Source of the DNA: Candidatus Brocadia sp.
Lineage (GTDB): Bacteria; Planctomycetota; Brocadiia; Brocadiales; Brocadiaceae
Assembly: GCA_013360945.1 (NCBI GenBank)
Contig: JABWAQ010000013.1
Span: 1-64,000 of the forward strand
Direction: 5' to 3'
Length of the DNA: 64,000 nucleotides
Part shown: piece after piece, positions 31,268 through 49,682 of the stretch
Layout: every line of letters begins with the position of its first letter
How positions within the stretch are numbered: the first letter of the stretch is position 1
Notes under the pieces: model-generated
Seen by the model: the letters and a program-made list of their open reading frames with translations, nothing else
Databases searched by the model: none
What the model was told of the DNA's origin: nothing
Position numbers and translations under genes: made by a program

Positions 31268-31774
31268 TTACGGTACGTCATGCCAGCACATCAAAATACT
31301 GCAAGCTGTTTTAGCGTCCCGAATTTCACCCTTCTTTACCATCTCGAGTGCCTTGCTGAGTTTGACTTGTATTATTCCCTTAATTGATTCGTCTGCCTGA
31401 TAATTTGTTTGAGTTTTTATAAGATTGGTTGCCTTAAAAAGATGCATTGTCTCACTTAAGATGCCTGGAGAGGGATAAAGAATTATGAGTGGTTCAAGTT
31501 TACCTGCTTTATAGCCTGTTTCTTCTTCCAATTCACGTCCTGCACACGTTATGAATGTTTCACCCTTATCAAGCGTGCCTGCAGGAATTTCGTAAAGGGT
31601 CTCCTTAACGGCATGTCTGTATTGTTTGATAAGGAAGATTTCATCTTCTGAGACAAAAGGGATGATAGCGGCTGAACCCGGGTGTTCAATGACCTCCCTC
31701 ATTACCTTTCTTCCGTCATCTAAGAGAACCTCATCCTTTCTGACGTTTATTTTTATACCAGAGTAAATAAGCAT
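31268..31774 (-). CDS. NUDIX hydrolase (ADP-ribose pyrophosphatase-like)
   Basis: A 168-residue NUDIX protein when started at ATG 31774. The nudix box is GTLDKGETFITCAGRELEEETGY, matching GX5EX7REUXEEXGU. The preceding RHAVKETLYEIPAG and the following PSPGILSETMHLF match ADP-ribose/NDP-sugar pyrophosphatases. A further upstream ATG at 31804 would add 10 residues that lie inside the end of the adjacent IS630 element, so I prefer 31774. The IS insertion may have replaced the native promoter. Confidence 0.9.
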   Translation of the reverse strand: MLIYSGIKINVRKDEVLLDDGRKVMREVIEHPGSAAIIPFVSEDEIFLIKQYRHAVKETLYEIPAGTLDKGETFITCAGRELEEETGYKAGKLEPLIILYPSPGILSETMHLFKATNLIKTQTNYQADESIKGIIQVKLSKALEMVKKGEIRDAKTACSILMCWHDVP

Positions 31775-32814
31775 AAAAGCACCATATATGAATTGTATTT
31801 CCATTTAAAAAAAACAGGCGCGCTATTTACTTCTTCTATATATTTCATGATACGTTTCTTTAGTTCTTTTTTAGAAGTGACCCGTATACCCCTGAGCATT
31901 GTCCTTGCCATTTTCCCAAAAAACGACTCAATTAAATTAAGCCATGATCCATGCTTGGGCGTGAAAACAAATTCAAAACGATTCGGAATGCTTAATAAAT
32001 ATTCCCTCGTTTCTTTTGATATATGAGCAGAATGGTTATCTAATATAATACGAATCTTTGATTTTTCTTGGTAAGTCTTATCTATCATTTTTAAAAACTG
32101 AACAAACTCACGACTTCTGTGGCGATCAACCACGACGGCATGAATGTTTCCATGTAAAAGGTCAATTCCAGCCATTAAGCTGACTGTCCCATGCTGCACA
32201 TATTCATGGTCTCTGGAAAAACAAGGCTTTTCTCCAGGAACAGGGGGTAGATCGGGAGCGGTATTCTCTATGGCTTGAATGCCTGGTTTCTCATCGTAGG
32301 AAAGTATAGCAACAAAACAATCCTTTTGATTTGAACGGCGAATAATAGCTACCTCTTTATAGACATAGAGTACTTGCTCCATTTTGACATCGAAGTCTGG
32401 GTCTCGTTTTTCCAGGTAATATTGTATCTTATGAGGGCGAACGTTACTTTTGGTTAAAATTTTTGATACCGTTCCCCGCGATAATTTCTTAAGACAAGGA
32501 TACCCGGCGGCTTTACAGTTTGCCTTAACATGGTTCGATAATAATCTTGTTGTCCAGAGTTCATATGAATATCCGAAATCTTTTGGCTTTTGACAAGCTA
32601 ACGAAACTACGCATGTCCGCGCTTCCTGGGTTAAAGAAGGAGGTTTTCCTTTTCTTGGCAAATCTTGCAGGGCAGCTATCACTCCGAGCTGAAGTGCTTT
32701 GTCAATACACCGTTCAATCTTTGGCCGATTTGTCTGAAGTTGGCGAGCTATCTCCGAAACCGATACGCCTTCTGTATACAAAAGGATCATCTTCGCACGC
32801 TCAACCGTTTGCAA
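31753..32814 (-). pseudogene. IS630-family transposase, 5'-truncated
   Basis: A DDE transposase of the IS630/Tc1 type. The DDE residues appear in LSYDEKPGIQA, IILDNHSAHIS and SWLNLIESFFGKM. The N-terminal HTH is visible in the segment VSVSEIARQLQTNRP. The frame only opens just downstream of a TGA at about 32841 and lacks an ATG; the usual ~30 N-terminal residues are missing because family C repeat sequence begins there. The stop at 31753 falls inside the neighbouring nudix gene, which suggests that the element lost its own end or that the frame reads out of it. Probably inactive. Confidence 0.8.
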
Positions 32815-33027: not shown

Positions 33028-33579
33028 TTATTCGCCAAAAGCCGCTTCATCTATCACATCGATTCCATCCCCGCCCCAGTCTGGTGGATAAAACCCATTT
33101 TTCACAAACCGGGGAAATGTCGAATACGGCCAATCCTTGACACGTTTTACCAATCCATGCTTTACCGGGTTAAAATGCATATAATCCATGTGTCGCCTGA
33201 GATCGTCTTCATCACGAATCATGTGTTCCCAAAAACGCCGTTGCCAGATTGTAGATTCCCGGTATTTTCGCTTTGAATCGGTCATCCATTCTTCACGGTG
33301 AAACAAATTCTTAGCCTTTTTTGAAAATCCTGCCTTAATCAACCCCCAGCGCTTGGAATAATCACCGTCATTTTCCGGAAGAGTCCAGATACAATGGATA
33401 TGTTCCGGCAGCAACACCCATCCACAAATCGTAAATGGACATTGTTGCCGTACCTCGTTAATCATGGTACGCAGAATTTGCCTGCTCTCCGGAATTGTCA
33501 GGATTTTTCGCCGTTTGTAGGTAACAACCGTAAAGAAATAGGTTATCCCCGGTATCCGAACCCGCCGGTAGTTAGGCAT
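33028..33579 (-). CDS. REP-associated tyrosine transposase (RAYT, Y1 HUH family)
   Basis: RAYTs are single-strand transposases that cut REP palindromes. The start MPNYRRVRIPGITYFFT is the family consensus (ATG 33579). The HUH motif is HIHCIW in LLPEHIHCIWTLPENDGDYSKRW, and the catalytic Tyr is probably in the nearby segment. The C-terminal half has IWQRRFWEHMIRDEDDLRRHMDYMHFNPVKHGLV, again standard. The 183-residue length is full. Family C repeats flank it on both sides, which agrees with it mobilising them. Confidence 0.93.
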   Translation of the reverse strand: MPNYRRVRIPGITYFFTVVTYKRRKILTIPESRQILRTMINEVRQQCPFTICGWVLLPEHIHCIWTLPENDGDYSKRWGLIKAGFSKKAKNLFHREEWMTDSKRKYRESTIWQRRFWEHMIRDEDDLRRHMDYMHFNPVKHGLVKRVKDWPYSTFPRFVKNGFYPPDWGGDGIDVIDEAAFGE

Positions 33580-33606
33580 GTTTGTATATTTCCATTCATG
33601 CAATTT

Positions 33607-33840: not shown

Positions 33841-33942
33841 GTCAGAGGCATTCCAAACCATTTCGTTCATTCCCACATCCGTACAAATTCCCGGCATGCA
33901 TGCAAAATGCATGGTAGGCGATGCCTATCCTACCCGACTTTT
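33841..33942 (+). repeat. Family C repeat, copy 3 (right half only)
   Basis: TTCGTTCATTCCCACATCCGTACAAATT is followed by GGTAGGCGATGCCTATCCTACCCGAC. This half-copy supplies the last codons and stop of the TumE-like gene. Confidence 0.7.
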
Positions 33943-34266
33943 AATTTCCTGTATTACATCAATAACTGTAGCTCTATGTGATGGTAAGATTTTATCACCC
34001 TCATGTTTGTGATGAGGAAATGTTTTGATATGTTTCCAATGAGGTTTATTATCCCATCGGCTTATTACTTCGCCTCCTTCTTTCTGCCAATGATAAGAAT
34101 ATTTCTGATACGATGGTGTATGTAGTTCTGTAACATATAAAAATGTGCCATCCACTACTCTTGCCCTTAATTTCAACAACTTGATGGTATCCTCGTCGAT
34201 AAGCTCAATTACATCAATAGAGCGAAACAGATTTGACTCTTTTAATGCTGTAAGGATTCCCTGCAA
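33925..34266 (-). CDS. tumE: TumE-family toxin of a type II toxin-antitoxin pair
   Basis: A 113-residue protein with the TumE-type core YSYHWQKEGGEVISRWDNKPHWKHIKTFPHHKHEGD; the H-H-K-H segment close to the C-terminus is the hallmark. It overlaps the end of the upstream partner gene by 25 bp, as in many TA pairs. Its final codons (KSRVG and the stop) come from a family C repeat, so the native C-terminus was probably changed slightly by insertion. The mode of toxicity is not visible. Confidence 0.75.
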   Translation of the reverse strand: MQGILTALKESNLFRSIDVIELIDEDTIKLLKLRARVVDGTFLYVTELHTPSYQKYSYHWQKEGGEVISRWDNKPHWKHIKTFPHHKHEGDKILPSHRATVIDVIQEIKSRVG

Positions 34267-34562
34267 CTTTTTAATTCCTCAATCTTCTTTTTCCATTCAT
34301 CATATGAAAGCACAAACCCTTCCCACACAAGCATATCATCCCATTCCGAGAAAACCTCTTCCTGAGCTGTTTCAATTTTCTTTTTAAAAGCACTGAAATC
34401 CATACCGTACTTTTCTTCAAAGCTCTTACATTTACTATGGTAATATTCTGCTGTAGTGAATGCTTTATCCATGAGCAGATTCACTATTTCCTGGTCTGAA
34501 ATAGTATCTGCAATATCAGATGGAAGTTTTATTTTGATTTCTCTAAAAACTGTTTTATGCAT
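34242..34562 (-). CDS. Putative antitoxin partner of the TumE-like toxin
   Basis: A 106-residue acidic protein directly upstream of, and overlapping, the TumE-like gene. It starts MHKTVFREIKIKLPSDIADTISDQEIVNLLMDKA, like a regulatory DNA-binding or dimerisation N-terminus; the rest is helical (KCKSFEEKYGMDFSAFKKKIE). By position it is the antitoxin, as in TumA-TumE modules; I do not recognise a DNA-binding motif with certainty. A ribosome site GAAAGGGG precedes the ATG at 34562. Confidence 0.65.
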   Translation of the reverse strand: MHKTVFREIKIKLPSDIADTISDQEIVNLLMDKAFTTAEYYHSKCKSFEEKYGMDFSAFKKKIETAQEEVFSEWDDMLVWEGFVLSYDEWKKKIEELKSCRESLQH

Positions 34563-35047: not shown

Positions 35048-35237
35048 TTATGTAGGGCAAGGCATCGCCTGCCAAATCAAACCCGGCAATGTGATGTAAT
35101 GCGAGCATGATCCCACCATTGCCATAATCCGTTCCATGTCAAAATCGTTTCCATCCATTTCATTCATTCCACATCCGCACAAATTTCCCGCGTGCATCCG
35201 AATTAAATGATAGGCGATGCCTATCCTACCCGGCTGC
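35048..35237. repeat. Family C repeat, copy 5
   Basis: Full arrangement: TGTAGGGCAAGGCATCGCCTGCC, GGCAATGTGATGTAATGCGAG, ATAATCCGTTCC, CATTCCACATCCGCACAAATT, and closing ATAGGCGATGCCTATCCTACCC. It ends where the reverse transcriptase remnant ends. Confidence 0.8.
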
Positions 35238-35945
35238 AAGAAACCGTTTAACGTCAGAAGCATTCCCGGCCATTTCGTTCATTCCACCAACCGCACGAAT
35301 TACCCAATATGCGCCCGAAAAATGGTAGGCGATGCCTACCCTACCCGGCTTGGATAGCCACACATCAAGCGTAAAATGCAGGTAGAGGTTTGCAAGTAAA
35401 GGGCTTATTACTCCGCCTTGTGGCGTCCCTTTTCCTGCTCGTGGTTGCAATGTACCGTCTTGCTTTTGCATCTCCATCCGTAACCATCTCTCTACGTACA
35501 TCTTCACCCATTTCTCTTCTATAACGTGCTCTACTGCTTTTATCATCAGCTCATGGTCTATTTCATCAAAGAACTTGCTTATGTCCATATCTATCACCCA
35601 GTCCTGTCTGTAGCAGTTCTGTCTGACTTGTTCTATAGCCTGATGTGCGCTCTTTAGTGGTCTGTACCCATAAGAATTCTTATGGAAAAGACTGTCTATT
35701 CTCTTTTCCATGTAGTCCTTCACTACTTGCTGTGCTATCCTGTCCCGTAGTGTTGGAATGCCTAATTTACGCATTTTGCCATCTCTCTTCGGTATTTCTA
35801 CCTCTCTTACGGCTTGGGGATGGTAACTTCCTGAGGACATCCTGTTCCAAATTACATAGAGATTGCCCTCGACATTCTTGTCAAACTTGTCCCAGCTTTC
35901 ATTGTCTATCCCTGCTGCCTTTCCGCCTTCGCGGACTTTCATCAC
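35226..35945 (-). pseudogene. Group II intron reverse transcriptase/maturase, truncated
   Basis: The frame encodes the fingers/palm start of a group II intron RT: GKAAGID, KLGIPTLRDRIAQQVVKDYME, NSYGYRPLKSAHQAIEQVR, VIDMDISKFFDEIDHELM and GTPQGGVISPLLANLYLH. Immediately after LDVWL the reading enters family C repeat and ends in about 40 repeat-encoded residues. The catalytic YADD, thumb, maturase and endonuclease domains are absent. The start is also short, so the gene is a dead remnant. No intron domain V is visible downstream. Confidence 0.85.
35243..35349. repeat. Family C repeat, copy 6 (right half)
   Basis: GTCAGAAGCATTCCCGGCC..TTCATTCCACCAACCGCACGAATTACCC and the closing GGTAGGCGATGCCTACCCTACCC. 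It replaces the second half of the reverse transcriptase frame. Confidence 0.75.
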
Positions 35946-36767: not shown

Positions 36768-38090
36768 ATGACCCTACTTGCACCCTTATTAACCGAATAT
36801 GATAAAATAGCTGACAGCGAAGGTTCGCTCGATCCTTTGGGATTGTCTTTGATTGCTGATCGTCTTGGATCAAAGCTTGCACCGGGCGTTCGTGAACGCA
36901 TGAAACATCCACGCTTCTTGACTGCAATGGCAGCAGGAGCTATTATTTGTACCGAAGATGACGACGATCGGGTTGCACAGGATGGGGTTACGCCACCCTA
37001 TCAGGTGTATGAATGGTACGTTGTGCAGGCGCTTGTCAAATATTTTGGGAATAACACCGATGAGATCAGGGGACTTCCTGGGCGTGAGAAAGCAACCGAT
37101 GCGATGCGAAAGGGTGTTCCTCTATGCGCCCAAAACTATCTAAAAGCCCCCTCCGTTTTTGGGTTTCACGGTGTCTATCGCACACTGGCCGAAGATCTGG
37201 ATATCCTCCGTCAGGGAAGACTGGGTGAGGCAGGCGACCGTCTTATACGCATTTGGGAAACTGAACAAGACCTTGCTGGTTTCTACTCACGGGAACAAGG
37301 TCCAGGTGCCAGTCTTCGTCAGGCTTTGAAGAATGCGGTGAAGGATGGTCTAGACAAAAGTAAGGTGAGCCGTGAGTGGAACTGGTCGTTGAACCGCACC
37401 ATTGCGGAAAAGTTTGCCCCCTATCGTGCAAAAGCCAAAGAAAACGAGGCTCTTTTTGCTATGCTGTGCGAAGAACCGTCTTCTTACCGAAGTCAAATAA
37501 TCAATTTCCTTATTTCGAATGAAGGAAACAGATTATGGTTAAAAGAAGATACGACAGAAAAAAAACTGCATGCATCATTATTAAAATCAGCTTCTCCTGA
37601 TCTAAGAGAACTCTTGGAATGCATCAGGTCGTACGAACACTTTGCCCGCCTGATTCAAGACGCATTCGATGATTGTCTCTGGCATATGAGCCGTAAACAG
37701 GGGAAAACCAATATTAAGGAACTCGCTGGTCTGGAGGCGGTAAATCTGGCTCATAAAAATGTAACGGATGCCTTCACAAACGCATGCGATCAGTTGCGCC
37801 TTTATGGCTATGAGTCGGAATTTATTTACGGATTTGGGCATCTTCCGGTCAACGGAAATTGTGGAACCTGGGTTGAGCAACTCATGGATCATCATTTTAC
37901 CATGCAAAAGAAAAAACTACCGCTTGGTAAAAATCCATGGATAGACCGATATGATGATAATACGTACTGCGTTCGTCCTTTATACCGGAGGGATGAACCG
38001 GCGCGCATGGATGATTCGTATGTGCATCCCTATCGTACTAACGCTGTCTGGTCATTTTTAACAGATTTGAAACGGGTCAGGAATGAGTAG
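36768..38090 (+). CDS. First gene of a putative defence operon: large conserved-looking protein of unknown function
   Basis: A 440-residue soluble protein. The N-terminal stretch LDPLGLSLIADRLGSKLAPG followed by VRERMKHPRFLTAMAAGA (residues 21-58) resembles, in pattern, the D-x-L-G-x-G-x-I-R-D..F-P-G-x-S-T-x-x-x-R-x-R-Y-F starts of DUF6361-type proteins, which also occur beside PLD-like and helicase genes. This is from memory and not verified. No catalytic motif is evident. No ribosome site is visible before ATG 36768. The end overlaps the next gene by 8 bp (ATGAGTAG), showing translational coupling. By context it is probably a sensor or scaffold of a defence system. Confidence 0.75.
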   Translation: MTLLAPLLTEYDKIADSEGSLDPLGLSLIADRLGSKLAPGVRERMKHPRFLTAMAAGAIICTEDDDDRVAQDGVTPPYQVYEWYVVQALVKYFGNNTDEIRGLPGREKATDAMRKGVPLCAQNYLKAPSVFGFHGVYRTLAEDLDILRQGRLGEAGDRLIRIWETEQDLAGFYSREQGPGASLRQALKNAVKDGLDKSKVSREWNWSLNRTIAEKFAPYRAKAKENEALFAMLCEEPSSYRSQIINFLISNEGNRLWLKEDTTEKKLHASLLKSASPDLRELLECIRSYEHFARLIQDAFDDCLWHMSRKQGKTNIKELAGLEAVNLAHKNVTDAFTNACDQLRLYGYESEFIYGFGHLPVNGNCGTWVEQLMDHHFTMQKKKLPLGKNPWIDRYDDNTYCVRPLYRRDEPARMDDSYVHPYRTNAVWSFLTDLKRVRNE

Positions 38091-40167
38091 AAACAACAAT
38101 TATAATACCGGGTACGCAAAACTCATTGACTATTGGTCTCCGCCACCCAAAGCGGGAGAGCCAATCGGCTGTGTAACCACTACGTATACCTTTTCACCTG
38201 TATTTTTTGAGGAGGATTGCCTGAGCCGTTTTCTTAAACTGGAATCCGACCCCGACAACGACGGCTCAGTATTTCTTATTGAACGGGAAGAGAAGATGGC
38301 CTCTGTTCAGTGTATTTCGGTACTTGTTGACCAGCATTATTGCAAGGGTGCCCGAAATCTGCGATGGGATATTATACCGGCCCGAATTCCGAAAGCGATT
38401 ATGCACGCAAAAATATCCGTTCTTTGCTGGTCAAACCTTATCAGGGTGATCGTGGGATCGGCCAATCTTACCGAGCAGGGATACCGGATGAATCAGGAAA
38501 TTTTTGGTTCACTGGATTTTCACGAAGGTTCGGAAATTCCAGTGGCAGTACTAAAATCCATCCTGGATTTCTTAAGCGAGATGGTCGATCGTTGTACAAA
38601 TTCTCCTGACCAACCAGAAGTCAACCGGTGGCGTAATTTTATAACAAATATCGGGCAACTCACCAAAAATTGGGGACGTATTGAACCATATTGGGGTAGT
38701 AAAGATATTCGAATCTATTCTTTGCTTATAGGTCCGGGAAGGCCAGACCTCTTTGATCAAGTCCGAAATTATTGGAATGAAGCATCATCACGACCACCCG
38801 AGGATGCGTGGATTACAAGTCCATTTTTCGACCCTCCGGATTCATCGAATATTCCGGCCAAAAGAATCTGGGAGGTCTTAAACCAGCGTGGAACGGCTTG
38901 TGTCTGCTATTATGTTCGTGCGGAGGATAACAAAGATAAAAGACAACTGATCATAAACGCCCCGGAAAGTCTCCGGAAATCAGCACCTAATCAGCGAAGT
39001 AGTGTCGATATTCGTTTTGCCAGGTTAACAGAATTATTTGATACCAAAGAAATCAAAGCATTCCGGCCTTTGCATATGAAGTCGATATGGCTTCAGAATG
39101 ATGAATGGGCGCTATACGTCATAGGATCAAGTAACTTTACCACACGGGGTACGGGTGTTGACCGTATTGCCAATTTCGAAGCGAATATTGTCTACATGGC
39201 ATCTCGTACGCAAAACAAAGCCGCCGTCAACATGCTCGGAAAAAGCTCTTTATCAAGGGATTATTTGGCAATTGATGAGCATACCTTATGGGATAGACAA
39301 GCCAATGAAGACGAGCCGGACTCAGAATGCCCCACACTGCTCCCATTCGTATTTGGTTATGCCATTTACGACCGGGATGAGCATATGGTATCGTTTGTCC
39401 GATTCCATTTCAGTTCTCAAGACCTACCGAAGGGCTTTTCCATATCGCAGGAAGATGGAAAGGAAGTCTTGTATGACGAAAGAAAATGGGTGGAGGATGG
39501 CAAACCGCTGGAACAACGCCTAGCATGGAAATCAGATTTGCCACCTTCTGGGTTTAATGTGATGTGGGATGGCGCAAAGAATCCAGCCTGGTGGCCCGTG
39601 AATATTGAAAGCGCTTCAGCCCTTCCACCGCCGCCTGAACTCAAAGATCTGCCTTTGGAAATCTTGATGTCAATTCTTACGTCAGCCCGTCCTCTGCACC
39701 AGGTTATAGGCGCATGGCTAAAGAAGAAACAACAATGCAATAGACCTGACGTTGTCATAGATCCTCACAAAAAGGTAGATACGACAAAGTTTTTATTTCA
39801 GCGTACCCGTCAGATATCATGGGCTCTCCGATCGTTGAAGGAGCGGTTTGAAGAAAAGCCGTTCTATACAGCTGAATCGTTACACTGGAGGCTTCGGGGG
39901 CCTATTGGTGTTCTTACCCTGGCCCAGACCATTATCAGGGAAGGCAAGTCGGAGGATGAGAAAGTCTTTTTAGTAGCTGAAATTGTACTTGAACTGGGGC
40001 GAATTAATCCTAAAGAGGATACCCGTAGCCTGAAGCGTGAGGTTGTCGCGGAAGAATTCCGCAAAATCATTCGTGAAATAAAAGAGACGATTTTACCATC
40101 TATTCAAATAACGGATGGTCTAATGAATGCTTACGTATCGAAGGCATTCCGGGAGTCTTTGAAATGA
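38083..40167 (+). CDS. Phospholipase D-like protein (putative nuclease) of the defence-like operon
   Basis: A 694-residue protein with two HKD-like half-sites. The first is MHAKISVL (H108, K110) followed by GSANLTEQG (125-133); the second is LHMKSIW (H331, K333) followed by GSSNFTTRG (348-356) and an N-x-E further on. Such PLD-like enzymes in defence loci are often nucleases (DISARM DrmC, Dpd DpdK), though others are phospholipases. The C-terminal 300 residues have no motif I recognise. The gene overlaps its predecessor by 8 bp and the helicase gene by 4 bp (ATGA), so all three products are probably made in fixed ratio. Confidence 0.85.
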   Translation: MSRNNNYNTGYAKLIDYWSPPPKAGEPIGCVTTTYTFSPVFFEEDCLSRFLKLESDPDNDGSVFLIEREEKMASVQCISVLVDQHYCKGARNLRWDIIPARIPKAIMHAKISVLCWSNLIRVIVGSANLTEQGYRMNQEIFGSLDFHEGSEIPVAVLKSILDFLSEMVDRCTNSPDQPEVNRWRNFITNIGQLTKNWGRIEPYWGSKDIRIYSLLIGPGRPDLFDQVRNYWNEASSRPPEDAWITSPFFDPPDSSNIPAKRIWEVLNQRGTACVCYYVRAEDNKDKRQLIINAPESLRKSAPNQRSSVDIRFARLTELFDTKEIKAFRPLHMKSIWLQNDEWALYVIGSSNFTTRGTGVDRIANFEANIVYMASRTQNKAAVNMLGKSSLSRDYLAIDEHTLWDRQANEDEPDSECPTLLPFVFGYAIYDRDEHMVSFVRFHFSSQDLPKGFSISQEDGKEVLYDERKWVEDGKPLEQRLAWKSDLPPSGFNVMWDGAKNPAWWPVNIESASALPPPPELKDLPLEILMSILTSARPLHQVIGAWLKKKQQCNRPDVVIDPHKKVDTTKFLFQRTRQISWALRSLKERFEEKPFYTAESLHWRLRGPIGVLTLAQTIIREGKSEDEKVFLVAEIVLELGRINPKEDTRSLKREVVAEEFRKIIREIKETILPSIQITDGLMNAYVSKAFRESLK

Positions 40168-42995
40168 GTTATCTCTATCCTTACAACGACACGATCGATC
40201 TATTTGTTAAAGGGCGTATATCGGAAAATGATGCCTCACGGCAGAGATGCACCGCAGAAGAAATACTACGTCGATTGGAGAATCAACCGGGATTAATCCT
40301 TGCCGATGAGGTTGGCATGGGTAAGACGTTTGTAGCCCTGGCCGTAGCCATGTCGGTTGCCACGAGCGACAAAGTGAAGAGACCGGTCGTTATCATGGTT
40401 CCCTCAACACTGAAAGAAAAGTGGCCTCGAGATTTTGAAGTGTTTAGAGAAAAATGCTTACCAGCGCCTCTATCCGCGTCTATACATTATGATCGCGCAG
40501 AAACTGGCGTTGACTTTTTGAAACTTCTTGATGATAAGAAAGAAGACCGAAAATCCATTGTTTTTCTAACGCATGGCGCAATGAGCCGGGGATTAACGGA
40601 TGACTCCGGTGTTTGGATCAAGTTGGCACTGATCCAGCGGGCCCTTCATCACCGTTGGGATACAGACCGCCTTAAAAGGGCTTTATATCGTGTGCTTAGC
40701 CGACTTTTGCGGGTTACGAAGTATGATCGCTATGGAGAAGAGCTTTGGGAAAAATTGCTGGACTCAGACATCGAAAAATGGCTCCGTATTCTGAACCGAT
40801 TTGGTATTGAGGAAAAAGATGACCCTGTACCAAAGGGTGTAATGGATGCGCTGAGAGAAATAGAGGTTCAATCCCTTTATGATGCAATTAGGGAAATACC
40901 TCAGAGGGAGTCAAAAAACCTTGATGAGAGAATTCTTAATACACGCCGTATCCTGAACGATGAAATCCGGGACATTTGGGTAAAATGCCTGGCCAATGTA
41001 GACATTCAATTGCCTTTATTAATTCTGGATGAGGCGCATCATCTCAAAAACCCGAACACAAAACTTGCGTCACTGTTTCAATCGAAGGATGCCGAAGATG
41101 ATGCCGAGGAACTAAAACTAAAAGGACATCTTGCGGGCATGTTTGAACGAATGATTTTTCTCACCGCAACGCCGTTCCAGTTAGGACACTATGAATTATG
41201 CTCCGTCCTTGAGCGATTTCAGGGAATATCATGGAAGGATTCGACGTCTCCGGCTGGCGAGTTAGCCCAGTTTCAAAGCGAATTGGCCGACCTGAAGACT
41301 AAACTCGACCAGGCTCAGGAGGCTGCTGTAAGACTCGATCATGATTGGGAACGCTTGAACGAGGGTGATTTTGTGGTTAATGGACAAAAGCTGACATCGG
41401 TCCATGAATGGTGGTCTATTGTTCGATCTGATCAGGTTGGATTGACACCGGCAGCATCGTTAGTGATTAAATCTTACGGACAAACGAAACAAAGAATGAA
41501 AGACGCTGAGGCATCATTGAAAAAATGGGTGGTACGACACATACGTCCGAAATATGTACCGTTAAAGGAGGGTTTGACTGAACGACGCAAGTGCTTTGTG
41601 GGAAAATCGATGATAAGTGAAAACGACGAATGCCTTACAGAGGGACTTAAAATTGCGGGAACGTCACTTTTGCCATTTCTCCTATCAGCCAGGTTGGTCG
41701 CACTTAATCCAGAGTCCAGACCCTTTTTCTCAGAGGGACTGGCATCCAGTTATGAAGCCTTCCTGAATACGAGAAAAACCCGGCAAACTGTGAAGCCCAC
41801 CGATAATGACGACGACGATGTGGCCTTTTTCAACCAAGTGAATGATCCAACCGTTGAATGGTATCTCCGCCAATTAGAGAAATCATTGCCTCCAAATGAT
41901 TCCTCATGCTATGTGCAACATCCGAAAGTGAAAGCCACTGTCGACAAAGTAATTGATTTATGGCTTCAGGGTGAGAAGGTCTTGGTTTTTTGTCACTATG
42001 TTGCAACGGGCAGGGTGTTACGGCAATACATCTCAGAAGCCATGCGCAACAAGATTCGTGAGCTAGGCGCAAAAAAAATTGGGTGTGCATCTGACGAGGT
42101 CATGGACAGACTGGAAAAAATTGGGACGAGATTTTTTGACCAAGATTCGAAATTACGGTCGGAAACGGATAAGAGAATTGCAAGTATAATTCGGTCATAT
42201 TACGCACTACACACACATGAGACGGAAATGCTGGATATTATAAGAAGGTATTTACGCACCCCCACATTCCTTGTTCGGTATTTTCCGCTCGAAAAAACAA
42301 AATTAGATGAAATCGATTATGAAGTCATTTTTCACGTAAAAGACAATAGCGGTCTTTCGCTTCAGGAATTACTTACCCATTTCTTTGACTTTTTACAGAA
42401 TCATTGCGGAGAAGCCGAAAGGAAAGGTTTTATACATGCCTTACTGTCTATACAAACAGGAAGTTTTATGAGTGTGGATATAGCAAAAGCATACACCGAA
42501 GATGAATTGCAGGGAGAGAAAAGTGAGCGGCTTCTGCCCAACGTGAGGTTAATAAATGGAACCACGAAACAGGAAACCCGTCAGAAAATTATGCTCACCT
42601 TTAATACGCCTTTTTACCCGGATGTTTTGGTCACGAGCAGTGTTATGGCTGAGGGTGTCGATCTGCACCTCAATTGCCGCTACGTTATTCATCACGATCT
42701 CTGCTGGAATCCGAGCACATTAGAGCAAAGGACGGGACGCGTTGATCGGATCGGCGCAAAGGTGGAGAAGTGTGGCAAGCCAATACACGTATATTTTCCC
42801 TTCATTTCAGAAACCCAGGACGAGAAAATGTATCGAGTGGTTATGGATCGTGAACGCTGGTTTAAAGTTGTCATGGGGGAAAAATACAAGTTAGATGCAA
42901 AAACGACGGAAAAACTTGCCTCACGGGTTCCGTTTCCCGAAGAAGCCGCTGGGGAGCTGATGTTCAATTTGGCCATACGTAACAAGAGTATCTGA
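40164..42995 (+). CDS. SNF2/RapA-type SF2 helicase/ATPase of the defence-like operon
   Basis: A 943-residue superfamily 2 ATPase. Motif I is ILADEVGMGKTFVALA (GMGKT at 51-55), motif II LLILDEAHHLKNP (DEAH at about 289-292), motif III FLTATPFQLG (about 333-342), motif V SSVMAEGVDLHLNCRYVIHHDLCWNPS and motif VI LEQRTGRVDRIG (near 855). The last two match the RapA/HepA and SNF2 class that translocates on double-stranded DNA. An unusually long insert of about 230 residues separates motifs I and II, and a further long insert lies between the two RecA-like domains (residues 350-590). It probably powers or targets the PLD-like partner; this is inference. Confidence 0.88.
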   Translation: MSYLYPYNDTIDLFVKGRISENDASRQRCTAEEILRRLENQPGLILADEVGMGKTFVALAVAMSVATSDKVKRPVVIMVPSTLKEKWPRDFEVFREKCLPAPLSASIHYDRAETGVDFLKLLDDKKEDRKSIVFLTHGAMSRGLTDDSGVWIKLALIQRALHHRWDTDRLKRALYRVLSRLLRVTKYDRYGEELWEKLLDSDIEKWLRILNRFGIEEKDDPVPKGVMDALREIEVQSLYDAIREIPQRESKNLDERILNTRRILNDEIRDIWVKCLANVDIQLPLLILDEAHHLKNPNTKLASLFQSKDAEDDAEELKLKGHLAGMFERMIFLTATPFQLGHYELCSVLERFQGISWKDSTSPAGELAQFQSELADLKTKLDQAQEAAVRLDHDWERLNEGDFVVNGQKLTSVHEWWSIVRSDQVGLTPAASLVIKSYGQTKQRMKDAEASLKKWVVRHIRPKYVPLKEGLTERRKCFVGKSMISENDECLTEGLKIAGTSLLPFLLSARLVALNPESRPFFSEGLASSYEAFLNTRKTRQTVKPTDNDDDDVAFFNQVNDPTVEWYLRQLEKSLPPNDSSCYVQHPKVKATVDKVIDLWLQGEKVLVFCHYVATGRVLRQYISEAMRNKIRELGAKKIGCASDEVMDRLEKIGTRFFDQDSKLRSETDKRIASIIRSYYALHTHETEMLDIIRRYLRTPTFLVRYFPLEKTKLDEIDYEVIFHVKDNSGLSLQELLTHFFDFLQNHCGEAERKGFIHALLSIQTGSFMSVDIAKAYTEDELQGEKSERLLPNVRLINGTTKQETRQKIMLTFNTPFYPDVLVTSSVMAEGVDLHLNCRYVIHHDLCWNPSTLEQRTGRVDRIGAKVEKCGKPIHVYFPFISETQDEKMYRVVMDRERWFKVVMGEKYKLDAKTTEKLASRVPFPEEAAGELMFNLAIRNKSI

Positions 42996-43312: not shown

Positions 43313-43729
43313 TTACTTGAGGAGCAGTATTCCGCCTAAAATAAGCAACATGCCTGCTGCCTTAGACAGGGTAATCTCCTCACCCAGAAAGATCCAGCCC
43401 AGGAGAAAGGAAAAGAGGGGATAACAGCAGGTAACGGGGATAATCCTTGATATCTCACCCGTCTTGAGGGCCTTGTAAAATACCAGTTGTGCCACAACCC
43501 CCGCCAGAATACCGGCAAGGACAAGGAAAAAGATGGCCTTGATTCCCATCTTCCCGAAGGAGGGAAACTGAGGGGTAAAAGCGATAAGAATTACGACACC
43601 CAGGAAGACCCCCGAACATCTGACCAGGTATGCGGCAGTTGGCTCAACGGATGAGAGGCCAATCTTCTCTAAAAACGGCACAAATCCCCAGATAAAGGCC
43701 GTCAGTAAGGCAAGGAAAAATGCTTCCAT
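43313..43729 (-). CDS. EamA-type small multidrug/metabolite transporter (four TM)
   Basis: A 138-residue hydrophobic protein with four or five membrane segments. It starts MEAFFLALLTAFIWGFVPFLEKIGL, has YLVRCSGVFLGVVIL and ends in the EamA-typical FSFLLGWIFLGEEITLSKAAGMLLILGGILLL. This single-repeat size is typical of small EamA/DMT members that dimerise. The substrate is unknown. ATG 43729 is chosen because of the GGGGTGA site before it. Confidence 0.85.
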   Translation of the reverse strand: MEAFFLALLTAFIWGFVPFLEKIGLSSVEPTAAYLVRCSGVFLGVVILIAFTPQFPSFGKMGIKAIFFLVLAGILAGVVAQLVFYKALKTGEISRIIPVTCCYPLFSFLLGWIFLGEEITLSKAAGMLLILGGILLLK

Positions 43730-43817
43730 GAAAATCACCCCAACAAAATGGTATACTTATAAAATAATTAAAGCTCTTGGCCACGAATTATCACAAATAG
43801 TGATTTTATACAGGGTG

Positions 43818-43844
43818 GCATGGACAAACTACGTTTGTCCATGC
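43818..43844. repeat. Family B palindrome, copy 5
   Basis: GCATGGACAAAC-tac-GTTTGTCCATGC, preceded by CAGGGTG. Both arms carry the compensating change (ACG to ATG and CGT to CAT) relative to the consensus, so pairing is kept. Confidence 0.8.
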
Positions 43845-43945
43845 TGAACTTGCGCGACGTTGTTTATGTATCATCTATTTTGAAATTGAATTGAAAATAC
43901 AACGGTAACTATTGCAAGCACAAGGCATTCATCAGTTTTACAAAA

Positions 43946-43972
43946 GCACGGACAAGCAATGCTTGTCCGTGC
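43946..43972. repeat. Family B palindrome, copy 6
   Basis: GCACGGACAAGC-aat-GCTTGTCCGTGC followed by CACCC. Here too both arms changed together (AAAC/GTTT to AAGC/GCTT). Confidence 0.8.
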
Positions 43973-44603
43973 CACCCAAATAGAATAGCATACAATGCAT
44001 CAACTTGACAAATCACAATTTCTGAGCCTTTTGGGTATAAATGATGGAAAAACACCTTGTGGAGTTAGAAGTCACATAATTATAATAAAACAGGAGGAAA
44101 AATTCTTTAACAATGTTTTCAGACCATCACCGAACCCGAACGAGTCGGAAAAGTTTATCAATACTCTTTATGAACTCCAACATCGTTTCAATAACTCAGT
44201 GTTGCTCGCAATGCTATATCATTTTTTATTTGATTTAGTCCGGGTTAGTCAGTAAAAAATTTCAGAGGCAATTGCTCTTGTGTTTTAAAAAAGTACGAGC
44301 TTCTATAAATTGGCTTGTAAGCCTTGTATTACATGGCAATCCAGTTAATGGCAAAAATATTTTTTGTTAGATACTAGATAACTATTCAGCGTACTTTCGC
44401 CTACAATCGCTACACGCGAACAAAGTGTTGATTCTGCAATCCCGAAGGGATGGTATGATTATAGCATATTGTCATGCAATTACGTTTAACCCCGCAGGGG
44501 TGACATGGTATCATTCATTTCGCCTTATTTCACCCCTTATATGTTAAGGTGTCTATAATACATTGAAATATTATAAGAGTTAACTAAAATAGTTAACAGA
44601 ATT

Positions 44604-44666: not shown

Positions 44667-44888
44667 CCGAAAAATTGTTCATGAAGGAGCACGGGAAGAT
44701 AGAGTCTCGTCACCCCTGTCACACGATGGCCTCCCGTAGACCATACTCATCTTTCTTTGCTAATTTCTGCAACCGTATGATCGATAGAATGTTCTGAAAA
44801 AGTCCATATAAGGCTATCAACGGGTAACAGAAATTGCTCGCTCTTTCCGGGCACCCACAAACACTTTTTCATGGAAGGAGACCACGCA

Positions 44889-46035
44889 ATGGAACAAAAA
44901 ATGATTTATGTTGGCATTGACTGGGCTGATGATCATCACGATATTGTTATTACCGATGACTCAGCAAAGACGCTCGATCAATTCCGGATTGACCACACCT
45001 GCGACGGATTTGCCCTGCTTCATTCACACATCGCACATTATCAGACATCACCCGGCCTCGTATTAGTCGCCATCGAGACAAGCCGTGGACTTCTCCTGCA
45101 CGAACTCTTGCGGAAAGGCTATACCGTCTATGCCATCAATCCCAAGGCAGTCAACCGGTACAAGGATCGGCACATGCTTTCAAAGGCAAAATCAGACGTC
45201 CTCGACGCCCTGTCGCTCGGCCATCTCCTGCGAACCGACCGACACCTGTTTCGACCACTCATGCCCCTTCCCGAAGACTACCGGCTTCTCGACCGGCTTT
45301 GCGGCGACCTTCGGAAAGCGGTTGATGAAAAATCAAGGATCCTCAACCAGGTTATCTCCTGCTCGAAAGAATCCTATCCAAAGGCGCTGGAGATATTTTC
45401 TCTGAATTCACAGATATTCATCGAATTTCTGAAGGCTTTTCCCGATCACGACGCCCTGCATGCCTGCACAAAAAAGACCTTCCTTTCGTTCCGGAAAACT
45501 TCGACTGGGCATGCTTCTCGGCCAACTCGAAAATCTCAAAGAACATATTACCCGTTATGAACGGGAAATTCAGCATATCCTCGATCATCTTCCCGAATCA
45601 AACCCCGTCAAAAGTTTACCGGGTGTGGGAGAACGGCTTGCGCCGGAACTGGTCGCAATCCTTGGGCCAAACAGCAAAGACGGCCATCACCGCTTCCAGG
45701 TCGCTGCGGAAATTGCAAAACTCTCCGGTTGTGTGCCCGTTGTCAGGGAAAGCGGAAAATGGAGAACCGTGTCTCTGCGTTACGCGTGCGTAAAACCCTT
45801 CAGAAGGACATTTCGTGATTGGGCTTTTACCAGTATCAACCACTCACGCTGGGCAAGGGCATTCTACGATTACCACAAGCAGAGAAACCAAAATCATTCT
45901 ACCATCCTGCGCAACCTCGGCAAAAAATGGATCAAAATCCTTTTTGCTCTTTGGTCTCGGGGAACAACCTATGATGAAACGGTGCATGTTCACAATCTCA
46001 AAGCACGAAATGTCCCTTGGGCTATGGCTTTGTAA
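44889..46035 (+). pseudogene. IS110-family transposase, frameshifted
   Basis: The 5' frame from ATG 44889 (ribosome site AAGGAGA) encodes the DEDD-type RuvC-like domain: YVGIDWADDHHDIV, VAIETSRGLLLHELL and AINPKAVNRYKDRHMLSKAKSDVLDALSLGHLL. After about 45470 the coding continues in the +1 frame, with LPGVGERLAPELVAILG, LSGCVPVVRESGKW and WAFTSINHSRWARAFYDYHKQRNQ, the transposase domain with the catalytic Ser region. The breakpoint lies near an A6G run (about 45468-45474). Compared with typical IS110 proteins about 30 residues of the middle are also missing, so a deletion is likely and the gene is probably inactive. Confidence 0.85.
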
Positions 46036-46477: not shown

Positions 46478-46580
46478 GTGTGTTAGTGTGTTAGTGTGTT
46501 AGTGTGTTAGTGTGTTAGTGTGTTAGTGTGTTAGTGTGTTAGTGTGTTAGTGTGTTAGTGTGTTAGTGTGTTAGTGTGTG
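46478..46580. repeat. Octanucleotide tandem repeat array (TGTGTTAG)n
   Basis: About 12 uninterrupted copies of the 8-bp unit TGTGTTAG. No frame crosses it usefully. Such arrays are prone to length change by slippage; this one lies in non-coding DNA. Confidence 0.9.
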
Positions 46581-48317: not shown

Positions 48318-48401
48318 TGTAAAACTTTGTGTTCTTTGTGGTTGAGCTTTTTTGGTTGTGTGTAAAACTTTGTGTTCTTTGTGGTTGAGCTTTTTTGGTT
48401 G
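48318..48401 (+). repeat. 43-bp-period direct duplication
   Basis: A unit starting TGTAAAACTTTGTGTTCTTTG and ending GAGCTTTTTTGGTTG occurs twice in tandem (48318 and 48361). It directly follows family A copy 3 and directly precedes the methyltransferase start. Confidence 0.85.
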
Positions 48402-48416
48402 CGGCTCTGCTGCTTT

Positions 48417-49682
48417 ATGCAATTACTTAGAGATTTCATAATTAAAGAAATAAACAAAAAAGGGGAGATCACCTTTGCCGAGTATATGCAGACGGTACTC
48501 TACCACCCTGTTTATGGCTATTACAATTCGAATGCAGAACGTATGGGGAGATTTGGTGATTACTATACAAGTCCCACCGTCCACAGGATGTTCGGGGAAC
48601 TTCTTGCAAAACAACTGGAAGAGATGTGGCAGATTTTGGGAGGAGGGACATTTACGGTTGTGGAGATGGGTGCCAATAGGGGATGGTTGTGCCATGACAT
48701 TATTCAATATGTAAAGAAAGAAAACCCACAATTTTATGATAATTTTCGATATATTATTGTAGAATCGAACCCCTTTGCAAAAGAGAAGCAAAGAGCACTT
48801 CTTAATTCTCTCATCACGACTAAAATGAACGCAGCACATGGGACGGCAGAAAAGAAAAATTATTTTAATCACGCCGTCGTTCAACACATCCCTTCCACCC
48901 TGTTCACAGGGAACAAGGAAACACACCCCGCGCCTCTTTTGTCAGAGGAGAAAGGTTTGGGTGGAAAAGTTTCGTGGCATTCTTACACGGACGATGGATT
49001 CTCTTTCGACCAGATTCAGGGATGTTTTTTATCCAATGAGTTTGTTGATGCCCTCCCTGTACATCGATTAAAACTAAAAAATAAGGTTTTAAAAGAGACC
49101 TATGTGGGTTATAATGGGGCAAATTTTTACGAAATAGATGATGAGGTGTCTGAACCAGCGTTAAGAGATTATCTTGAAACGAACCAAATATATCTGACAG
49201 AAGGCCAATCATGTGAGGTAAATTTGTGTGCTATAAAATGGCTGAGACACGTTTCAGATAAATTAAACAGAGGATTTATCATAACCGTTGATTACGGTAA
49301 TACAACAGATAAACTCTATGATGAAAGCAATTATGAAGGTACAGTGAGATGTTATTATAAACATAATGTCAATCACGATTATTATGAACGGATGGGTGAA
49401 CAAGACGTCACTTCTCATGTGAATTTTACAGGCTTGATGAATGCGGGAGAATCAATGGGATTGAAGGTTACAGGTTTCACAAAGCAATCCCACTTTTTGA
49501 TTGCATTGGGTATACTGGATGAATTAAATACGATACATAACGATATTGAAGCGATATTAAAGGTAAAAAATCTTTTCCATCCTGAAGGGATGGGTGAAAT
49601 CTTCAAGGTATTAATTCAGCATAAGAATATCGAAAACCATCAGTTAACCAGTTTAAGGCCGTTGCAAACAATAACGGGGTGA
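48417..49682 (+). CDS. MidA/DUF185-type SAM-dependent methyltransferase
   Basis: A 421-residue protein. MQLLRDFIIKEINKKGEITFAEYMQTVLYHPVYGYY and GRFGDYYTSPTVHRMFGELLAKQLEEMW mark the N-terminus of the MidA (NDUFAF7) family. The SAM fold has VEMGANRGWLCHDI, and GCFLSNEFVDALPVHRLKLK is the family's second signature. In mitochondria the homologue methylates a complex I subunit; the bacterial substrate is unknown. Between HAVVQHIPS and YTDDGFSFDQIQ an in-frame insert of 25-30 residues (near 165-190) looks translated from repeat DNA. The chosen ATG 48417 has a poor ribosome site and sits at the end of the repeats. Confidence 0.85.
   Translation: MQLLRDFIIKEINKKGEITFAEYMQTVLYHPVYGYYNSNAERMGRFGDYYTSPTVHRMFGELLAKQLEEMWQILGGGTFTVVEMGANRGWLCHDIIQYVKKENPQFYDNFRYIIVESNPFAKEKQRALLNSLITTKMNAAHGTAEKKNYFNHAVVQHIPSTLFTGNKETHPAPLLSEEKGLGGKVSWHSYTDDGFSFDQIQGCFLSNEFVDALPVHRLKLKNKVLKETYVGYNGANFYEIDDEVSEPALRDYLETNQIYLTEGQSCEVNLCAIKWLRHVSDKLNRGFIITVDYGNTTDKLYDESNYEGTVRCYYKHNVNHDYYERMGEQDVTSHVNFTGLMNAGESMGLKVTGFTKQSHFLIALGILDELNTIHNDIEAILKVKNLFHPEGMGEIFKVLIQHKNIENHQLTSLRPLQTITG

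Follow-up and report, generated by a model that had tools for sequence, protein, structure and literature searches.

Gene content of the operon

The stretch of DNA analyzed here, called the window throughout, comprises 64,000 nucleotides of Candidatus Brocadia sp. (assembly GCA_013360945.1, 3.85 Mb in 196 contigs; contig JABWAQ010000013.1, positions 1 to 64,000), and it carries a compact operon of three genes, A, B, and C, with a probable role in antiphage defense. All three open reading frames (ORFs) are intact, are on the forward strand, and follow one another back to back, with overlaps of 8 bases between A and B and 4 bases between B and C, just as a model-made first-pass annotation of the sequence had described. 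Gene A (36768 to 38090) codes for a divergent 440-residue protein of the ZacA/PDC-M27A type, proposed as an adaptor or sensor; gene B (38083 to 40167) for a 694-residue predicted nuclease of the phospholipase D (PLD) superfamily, ZacB-like and with two catalytic half-sites; and gene C (40164 to 42995) for a 943-residue superfamily 2 (SF2) ATPase of the SNF2/RapA class, nearest to PDC-M27C and then to DrmD and ZacC.

The assignment of gene C is the plainest, with Pfam matches to Helicase_C (3.2e-17) and SNF2-rel (2.7e-11) and a PADLOC ranking of PDC-M27C (1.3e-38), DrmD (3.7e-28), and ZacC (7.9e-28); PDC-M27C is also the top match for the C proteins of three related loci (L036, L041, and L059). 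Motif I (Walker A, GMGKT, residues 51 to 55; 40314 to 40328) and motif II (DEAH, residues 289 to 292; 41028 to 41039) are invariant in the alignment of C homologues, and motifs V to VI (EGVDL ... QRTGRVDRIG, residues 830 to 864; 42651 to 42755), with QRTGRVDRIG at residues 855 to 864, are nearly so. Motifs I, II, III, V, and VI are retained, and the insert of roughly 230 residues that separates motif I from motif II, as had been pointed out from the sequence, is present.

Gene B matches PLDc_2 in Pfam (5.9e-9) and ZacB in PADLOC (5.2e-13), with a weaker match to PDC-M27B (8.5e-6) and a profile-profile probability of 96% against ZacB. Its first half-site consists of H108-K110 (38404 to 38412) with the partners N128 (in GSAN; 38464 to 38466) and E139 (38497 to 38499), and its second of H331-K333 (39073 to 39081) with N351 (in GSSN; 39133 to 39135) and E366 (39178 to 39180), and all eight residues are invariant across ten B homologues. 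The first-pass description of two HKD-like half-sites is therefore right as to the H/K pairs and the GSAN and GSSN segments, but the "D" of the textbook motif is not conserved, and the conserved set in each half is H-K-N-E. The best Protein Data Bank (PDB) match of the B profile is the restriction enzyme 2c1l, at a weak E value of 0.26, and its residues H105, K107, N125, and E136, which we take to be the catalytic residues of BfiI, align to the second half of B. The H-K-N-E spacing is 2/18/11 in the first half of B, the same as in BfiI, and 2/18/15 in the second. Pfam matches to RE_NgoFVII and Tyr-DNA_phospho are below threshold, and B shows no sign of a DNA-binding specificity domain, although its C-terminal third is poorly modeled (predicted local distance difference test [pLDDT] of 41.7 for the structure model).

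Gene A has no Pfam or NCBIfam match, does not match ZacA or DUF6361 (PF19888) on its own, and gives nothing significant in sequence and profile searches of the PDB; in PADLOC, it has a weak match to PDC-M27A (E value of 0.0047) over the 33 residues from 4 to 36. Annotation tools probably miss operons of this clade because A reaches no curated family. There is, however, an N-terminal motif at residues 8 to 54 (36789 to 36929), GSLDPLGLSxIADRLGxxLxPGxxxRMxxPRFLT, that is shared with ZacA/DUF6361 (TRDELGIAPIRDAFADRFFPGTIVPQTRARY). A ten-member A profile compared with four ZacA sequences gave a probability of 28% and an E value of 6e-4, at the correct position. With profiles enlarged by sequences from a Methylocystis plasmid and the viral contigs L052 and L082 on the A side and by a ZacA-like protein from locus L022 on the ZacA side, hhalign gives a probability of 90% and an E value of 1.7e-6 over GSLDPLGL..IA..L...L.PG...R...R.LT. 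The real comparison scores about 56, against at most 20.7 for 40 column-shuffled profiles, and reversed and unrelated control profiles have probabilities near zero. Three planctomycete ZacA proteins are themselves DUF6361 members (1.1e-46, 5.7e-59, and 2.3e-26), and the resemblance to DUF6361 that the first-pass annotation had put forward is thus borne out for the N terminus.

Two further A proteins bridge these families. That of L082 matches both PDC-M27A (7.9e-19) and the A-family profile (3.5e-17), and that of the Methylocystis plasmid matches the A-family profile (1.8e-12) and ZacA (0.0022). An N-terminal domain, at least, is very probably common to the A proteins, PDC-M27A, and ZacA, and the remainder has diverged past detection. 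The structure model of A is mostly helical and of low confidence (pLDDT of 58.8; predicted template modeling score of 0.48), and a fold search with it returned nothing below an E value of 0.96; the models of A and B were each built from six alignment rows, from the window and related loci only.

Comparison with named defense systems

Azaca was reportedly tested for antiphage defense by Millman and colleagues in 2022, and its genes are ZacA, ZacB, and ZacC. ZacC is given as the Azaca helicase, of superfamily 1 or 2 (PMC12278908), and Azaca as a PLD-containing system attributed to Millman et al. 2022 (PMC10952713). PADLOC represents Azaca by models PDLC03828-03830 and PDC-M27 by models PDLC04552-04556. 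Planctomycetota Azaca loci fetched with the ZacA model have the order ZacA-ZacB-ZacC, as in the window trio, and the likeness extends to the ZacA N-terminal motif, the double-HxK PLD protein, and the SNF2-type ATPase. The window operon differs in that A fails the DUF6361 and ZacA models when searched alone and that C prefers PDC-M27C, sharing mainly helicase motifs with ZacC. PDC-M27 likewise consists of three proteins of similar size (model lengths of 460 for A, 635 for B, and 656 to 1217 for C) and supplies the top PADLOC match of C, whereas the match of A to PDC-M27A is confined to the 33 residues given above. A search with PDC-M27A in 294 Planctomycetota genomes gave no match, and no published description of PDC-M27 was found in the literature searched. 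Profile searches of the kind proposed in the first-pass annotation yield ZacB for B, PDC-M27C as the best match for C, and no curated family for A. Its suggestion of an undescribed or unnamed system does not stand, as a DUF6361-like protein, a PLD protein, and an SNF2-type helicase make up the Azaca/PDC-M27 plan. As read from sequence, the architecture is already known (Azaca, with PDC-M27 as a candidate), and what is new is a deep branch, not a new kind of defense.

The same annotation had set the operon apart from DISARM and Dpd, and this separation is upheld. DISARM also has an SNF2-type helicase and a PLD nuclease, but there is no DrmA, DrmB, or methyltransferase in the window operon, and the cutoffs are missed widely, with C reaching 116 of 610 bits for DrmD (NCBIfam, 1.4e-33) and B reaching 17 of 133 bits for DrmC. 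Inspection of the translated ORFs of the window, not all of which were searched with profiles, revealed neither DISARM hallmark genes nor DNA methyltransferases. Stronger DrmA-profile matches of the same genome are on other contigs, including a 1205-residue helicase (6.7e-46; G000:C148:9944-11887) that is unlinked to the trio. Dpd has the same types of SNF2 helicase and PLD-like protein, but no deazapurine insertion genes were seen, its hallmark genes are absent from the operon, and the scores are far under the cutoffs (82 of 500 bits for C against DpdE and 18.5 of 100 bits for B against DpdK); membership in either system is rejected.

PLD_Helicase (NF042964) is an antiphage system that combines a PLD and a helicase without a methylase. 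It is one fused protein with a single NCBIfam model, whereas B and C are separate genes here, it has no A-like component, and the score is 80 of 1100 bits. Hachiman (HamAB) is similarly a nuclease and a helicase without a methylase and offers a model of self-discrimination by DNA integrity, but HamA is not a PLD protein and there is no A-like component.

Recurrence of the trio and its association with defense genes

A search of 392 Planctomycetota genomes with the B profile turned up related proteins in eight more of them. The complete ordered trio is present at L035, L036, L037, L038, and L041; L042 and L039 have A-B or B-C only, with contig ends cutting the operon, and at L040 the trio was not recovered on reading the locus. 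Outside this phylum, the trio is carried by a Methylocystis sp. MJC1 plasmid (NZ_CP107561.1), where it spans the start of the record, and by IMG/VR contigs classed as viral (L052 and L062/L082). The Methylocystis plasmid is the single match of a plasmid search with B, and the same search with C otherwise returned generic helicases; the phage records searched with B gave no match. Chance can be excluded because the same three genes recur in the same order across other genomes at about 20 to 88% identity, and the order A-B-C is kept at every locus long enough to show it.

The L082 trio matches the window family in B (7e-15) and C (8e-45) as it does in A, and it also matches PDC-M27 in B (1.7e-9) and C (6.8e-78); by these matches, it is an intermediate that joins the window clade and PDC-M27. 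The trees built separately for the three genes recover the same main clades, with the window grouped with the other Brocadia copies, L037 grouped with L038 and L052, and Azaca apart with full support, and several of the deeper placements are on long branches and uncertain. The module seems to have traveled as a unit because the three trees share these clades.

A recognized defense gene is near the trio at all six non-Brocadia cellular loci with scanned flanks (L039 and L042 being too short or unscanned), an association that is strong but, with neighboring ORFs picked by hand and no matched set of random loci, not a measured enrichment. The neighbors are DrmD (1.4e-167) at L035; BrxC (1594 bits) and an IetA-like ATPase at L036; HmaC/DUF499 (1.1e-118) and a CapP-like peptidase at L037; type III restriction-modification (R-M) genes, a BPTD_3080 endonuclease with MTase_III, at L038; BrxD (7.8e-204) and BrxHI (4.4e-298) at L041; and a QatC-like protein (9.4e-29, under the NCBIfam cutoff) at L058. 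Of the viral contigs, L082 has an MTase_III neighbor, and no defense neighbor was seen at L052 by inspection. A predicted defense role is well supported because all six scanned loci have such a gene nearby.

Several further observations concern these neighborhoods. DUF2779 genes are present near the trio on the viral contig L062 (3019 to 4530; 6.6e-41) and near a ZacA-like and PLD gene pair in another Brocadiaceae genome (L022, 15044 to 16543; 4.5e-40), possibly as an accessory of both. That pair itself (L022, 8182 to 11330; ZacA-like match of 2e-5) consists of adjacent genes with no SNF2 helicase found nearby and is possibly a two-gene derivative. A related type of helicase adjoins an Azaca locus (L057, 2268 to 4358) and the trio at L041 (12903 to 16705), the latter matching both BrxHI and SngC; BrxD/SngB is also present at L041, and a recurrent BREX/Shango-Azaca neighborhood is possible.

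The trio within Brocadia and the surroundings of the window operon

The nearest relatives of the window are the Candidatus Brocadia genomes WS118 (L005), B. pituitae (complete; L006), and the Planctomycetia metagenome-assembled genome AMX3 (L007). A, B, and C are present at 77 to 88% protein identity in L005, L006, and L017, and genome G009 also has a second copy on a short contig. B is truncated in L007 (at about 11983), C is frameshifted in B. pituitae (around 14219 to 14902 of L006), and G003 keeps only a C-terminal piece of C (G003:C41:18339-18776). In a search of eleven genomes of the genus, C is absent from G006, G008, G010, G011, and G012, the last of which holds a far-diverged PLD-helicase pair (L021). 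The trio occupies at least four settings in Brocadia, since flanking genes are common to L005 and L006 but those of the window, L007, and L017 differ from these and from each other. The ratio of nonsynonymous to synonymous substitution rates (dN/dS), computed on the intact parts of the genes, is 0.13 to 0.39 in every pair for all three genes, and 0.15 to 0.24 where one member of the pair is the window copy, values that indicate purifying selection on A, B, and C alike. The pattern is one of a gene set under selection that is gained, moved, and lost within Brocadia.

The setting of the window operon is a mobile-element island, as had been read from the sequence and is now supported by Pfam. Upstream and on the reverse strand are an IS630-type DDE transposase (31753 to 32814; DDE_3, 4.4e-22), a Y1 transposase of the repetitive extragenic palindrome (REP) type, IS200-like (33028 to 33603; Y1_Tnp, 4.6e-6), and a truncated group-II-intron-type reverse transcriptase (35226 to 35945; RVT_1, 6.3e-24). 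Downstream are an EamA transporter gene on the reverse strand (43313 to 43738; EamA, 5.2e-21) and, on the forward strand, an IS110-family transposase split across two overlapping ORFs (44871 to 46035; DEDD_Tnp_IS110, 5.4e-30; Transposase_20, 9.5e-11). The EamA gene also adjoins the trio in L005 and L006, where it is downstream and 93 to 96% identical.

The same island has other features. A TumE toxin gene (33925 to 34562, reverse strand; PF20126, 1.1e-22) overlaps an upstream gene of 106 codons with no credible family match, and the two are possibly a toxin-antitoxin pair with an unusual partner. A dispersed repeat family containing GGTAGGCGATGCCTA is present in several copies between 32800 and 35350, accompanied by palindromes such as GCACGGACAAACAGAGTTTGTCCGTGC that are also found at 43810 to 43980; these may be small nonautonomous elements that owe their movement to the REP-type transposase at 33028. 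A tandem array at 46478 to 46580, made up of about 13 head-to-tail copies of GTGTGTTA (8 bp), lies between the IS110 ORFs and an NAD-epimerase-like gene. Farther on is an S-adenosylmethionine-dependent gene (48372 to 49682), judged MidA-like from its own sequence, whose residues 150 to 196 (approximately) have no counterpart in an alignment to several Brocadia homologues and are possibly an in-frame repeat insertion. An empty site could not be defined from pheT and this gene as anchors, as they are not neighbors in the other Brocadia genomes checked.

Interpretation and alternative explanations

We consider it likely that these three intact genes make up a horizontally mobile antiphage system and that this system represents a far-diverged lineage of the Azaca (ZacABC)/PDC-M27 superfamily. 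Several points weigh against this. The similarity between A and ZacA is limited to about 46 to 107 N-terminal residues and is not detected with A by itself, that between C and ZacC falls largely in generic helicase motifs with DrmD ranked above ZacC, and the match of B to BfiI is weak (E value of 0.26). Long and fully supported branches part the clade from Azaca in all three trees. Neither structure model is strong enough to back the roles assigned to A and B, and the Brocadia copies sit among transposons and ordinary genes, not beside other recognized defense systems.

If the operon is such a system, C would translocate on DNA as a surveillance motor, the mostly helical A with its ZacA N-terminal motif would serve as the adaptor or sensor, either linking C to B or holding B in check, and B would be the effector that cuts DNA, its two HxK...N...E halves forming a BfiI-like, metal-independent phosphodiesterase site. 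The absence of a methylase, noted in the first-pass annotation, extends to the operon at every locus, and for this reason self and nonself are probably told apart by the state of the DNA (ends, single-stranded gaps, or replication and translocation intermediates) rather than by sequence marking. Precedents are Hachiman, which senses genome integrity (PMC12278908), and DrmAB, which is loaded by single-stranded DNA with a 5' overhang (PMC9142583), neither of which is homologous in full to the trio. Neither biochemical data nor a mechanism study for Azaca was found in the literature searched. It is also conceivable, although on balance doubtful, that the clade differs in function from Azaca, with the remodeled body of A and the accessory regions of C giving a different trigger, and so represents a third main branch of the superfamily.

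The similarity of B to BfiI and its subthreshold RE_NgoFVII match, together with the resemblance of C to DISARM and Dpd helicases and the type III R-M genes beside related trios, could instead point to methylase-less restriction or plasmid exclusion, in which C tracks DNA and B cuts recognized sequences or structures in a type IV-like or ATP-dependent manner, with modified or unusual DNA as the trigger. We regard this as unlikely, given that the operon has no methyltransferase or specificity module at any locus and that no specificity domain was found in B, within the limits of its C-terminal model. A repair or recombination module, with an SNF2/RapA translocase and a TDP1-like PLD protein that a mobile element carries to maintain itself, would fit the subthreshold Tyr-DNA_phospho match, the similarity of C to RapA, and the mobile-element setting and viral-classed contigs, but it is hard to reconcile with the recurrence of BREX, DISARM, Hma, R-M, and Qat-like genes near the trio, the patchy distribution within the genus, and homology to a system reportedly tested for defense, and is quite improbable.

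Two further explanations have very little to recommend them. Descent from DISARM with loss of DrmA, DrmB, and the methylase is suggested by the DrmD matches of C (NCBIfam and PADLOC), a weak DrmC match of B (2.3e-5), and the DrmD gene beside L035; however, C falls far short of the DrmD cutoff and scores better as PDC-M27C, B is better as ZacB, the DrmC models cover 153 to 269 positions against 694 residues and two HxK halves in B, A has no DISARM counterpart, and the operon lacks DrmA, DrmB, and a methylase. The damaged relatives in L006, L007, and G003 might suggest a decaying island whose genes are remnants without current function in Brocadia, but in the window none of the three frames is broken and no catalytic residue has been lost, and dN/dS falls well under 1, making this a scarcely credible account of the window operon.

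Taking the operon as a divergent member of the Azaca/PDC-M27 superfamily, the comparison joins Azaca, PDC-M27, and an unannotated clade of planctomycete, proteobacterial, and viral-contig trios into one superfamily, for which no uniting paper was found in the literature searched, and it fixes the features that its members appear to share: a ZacA-like N-terminal motif, two H-K-N-E half-sites, and an SNF2 ATPase. Azaca is a named defense system without a mechanism in that literature, and the L082 and Methylocystis trios provide intermediates for mutagenesis and for better profile models. The question of how self is discriminated without a methylase would extend to the whole superfamily and is testable with the residues named here.

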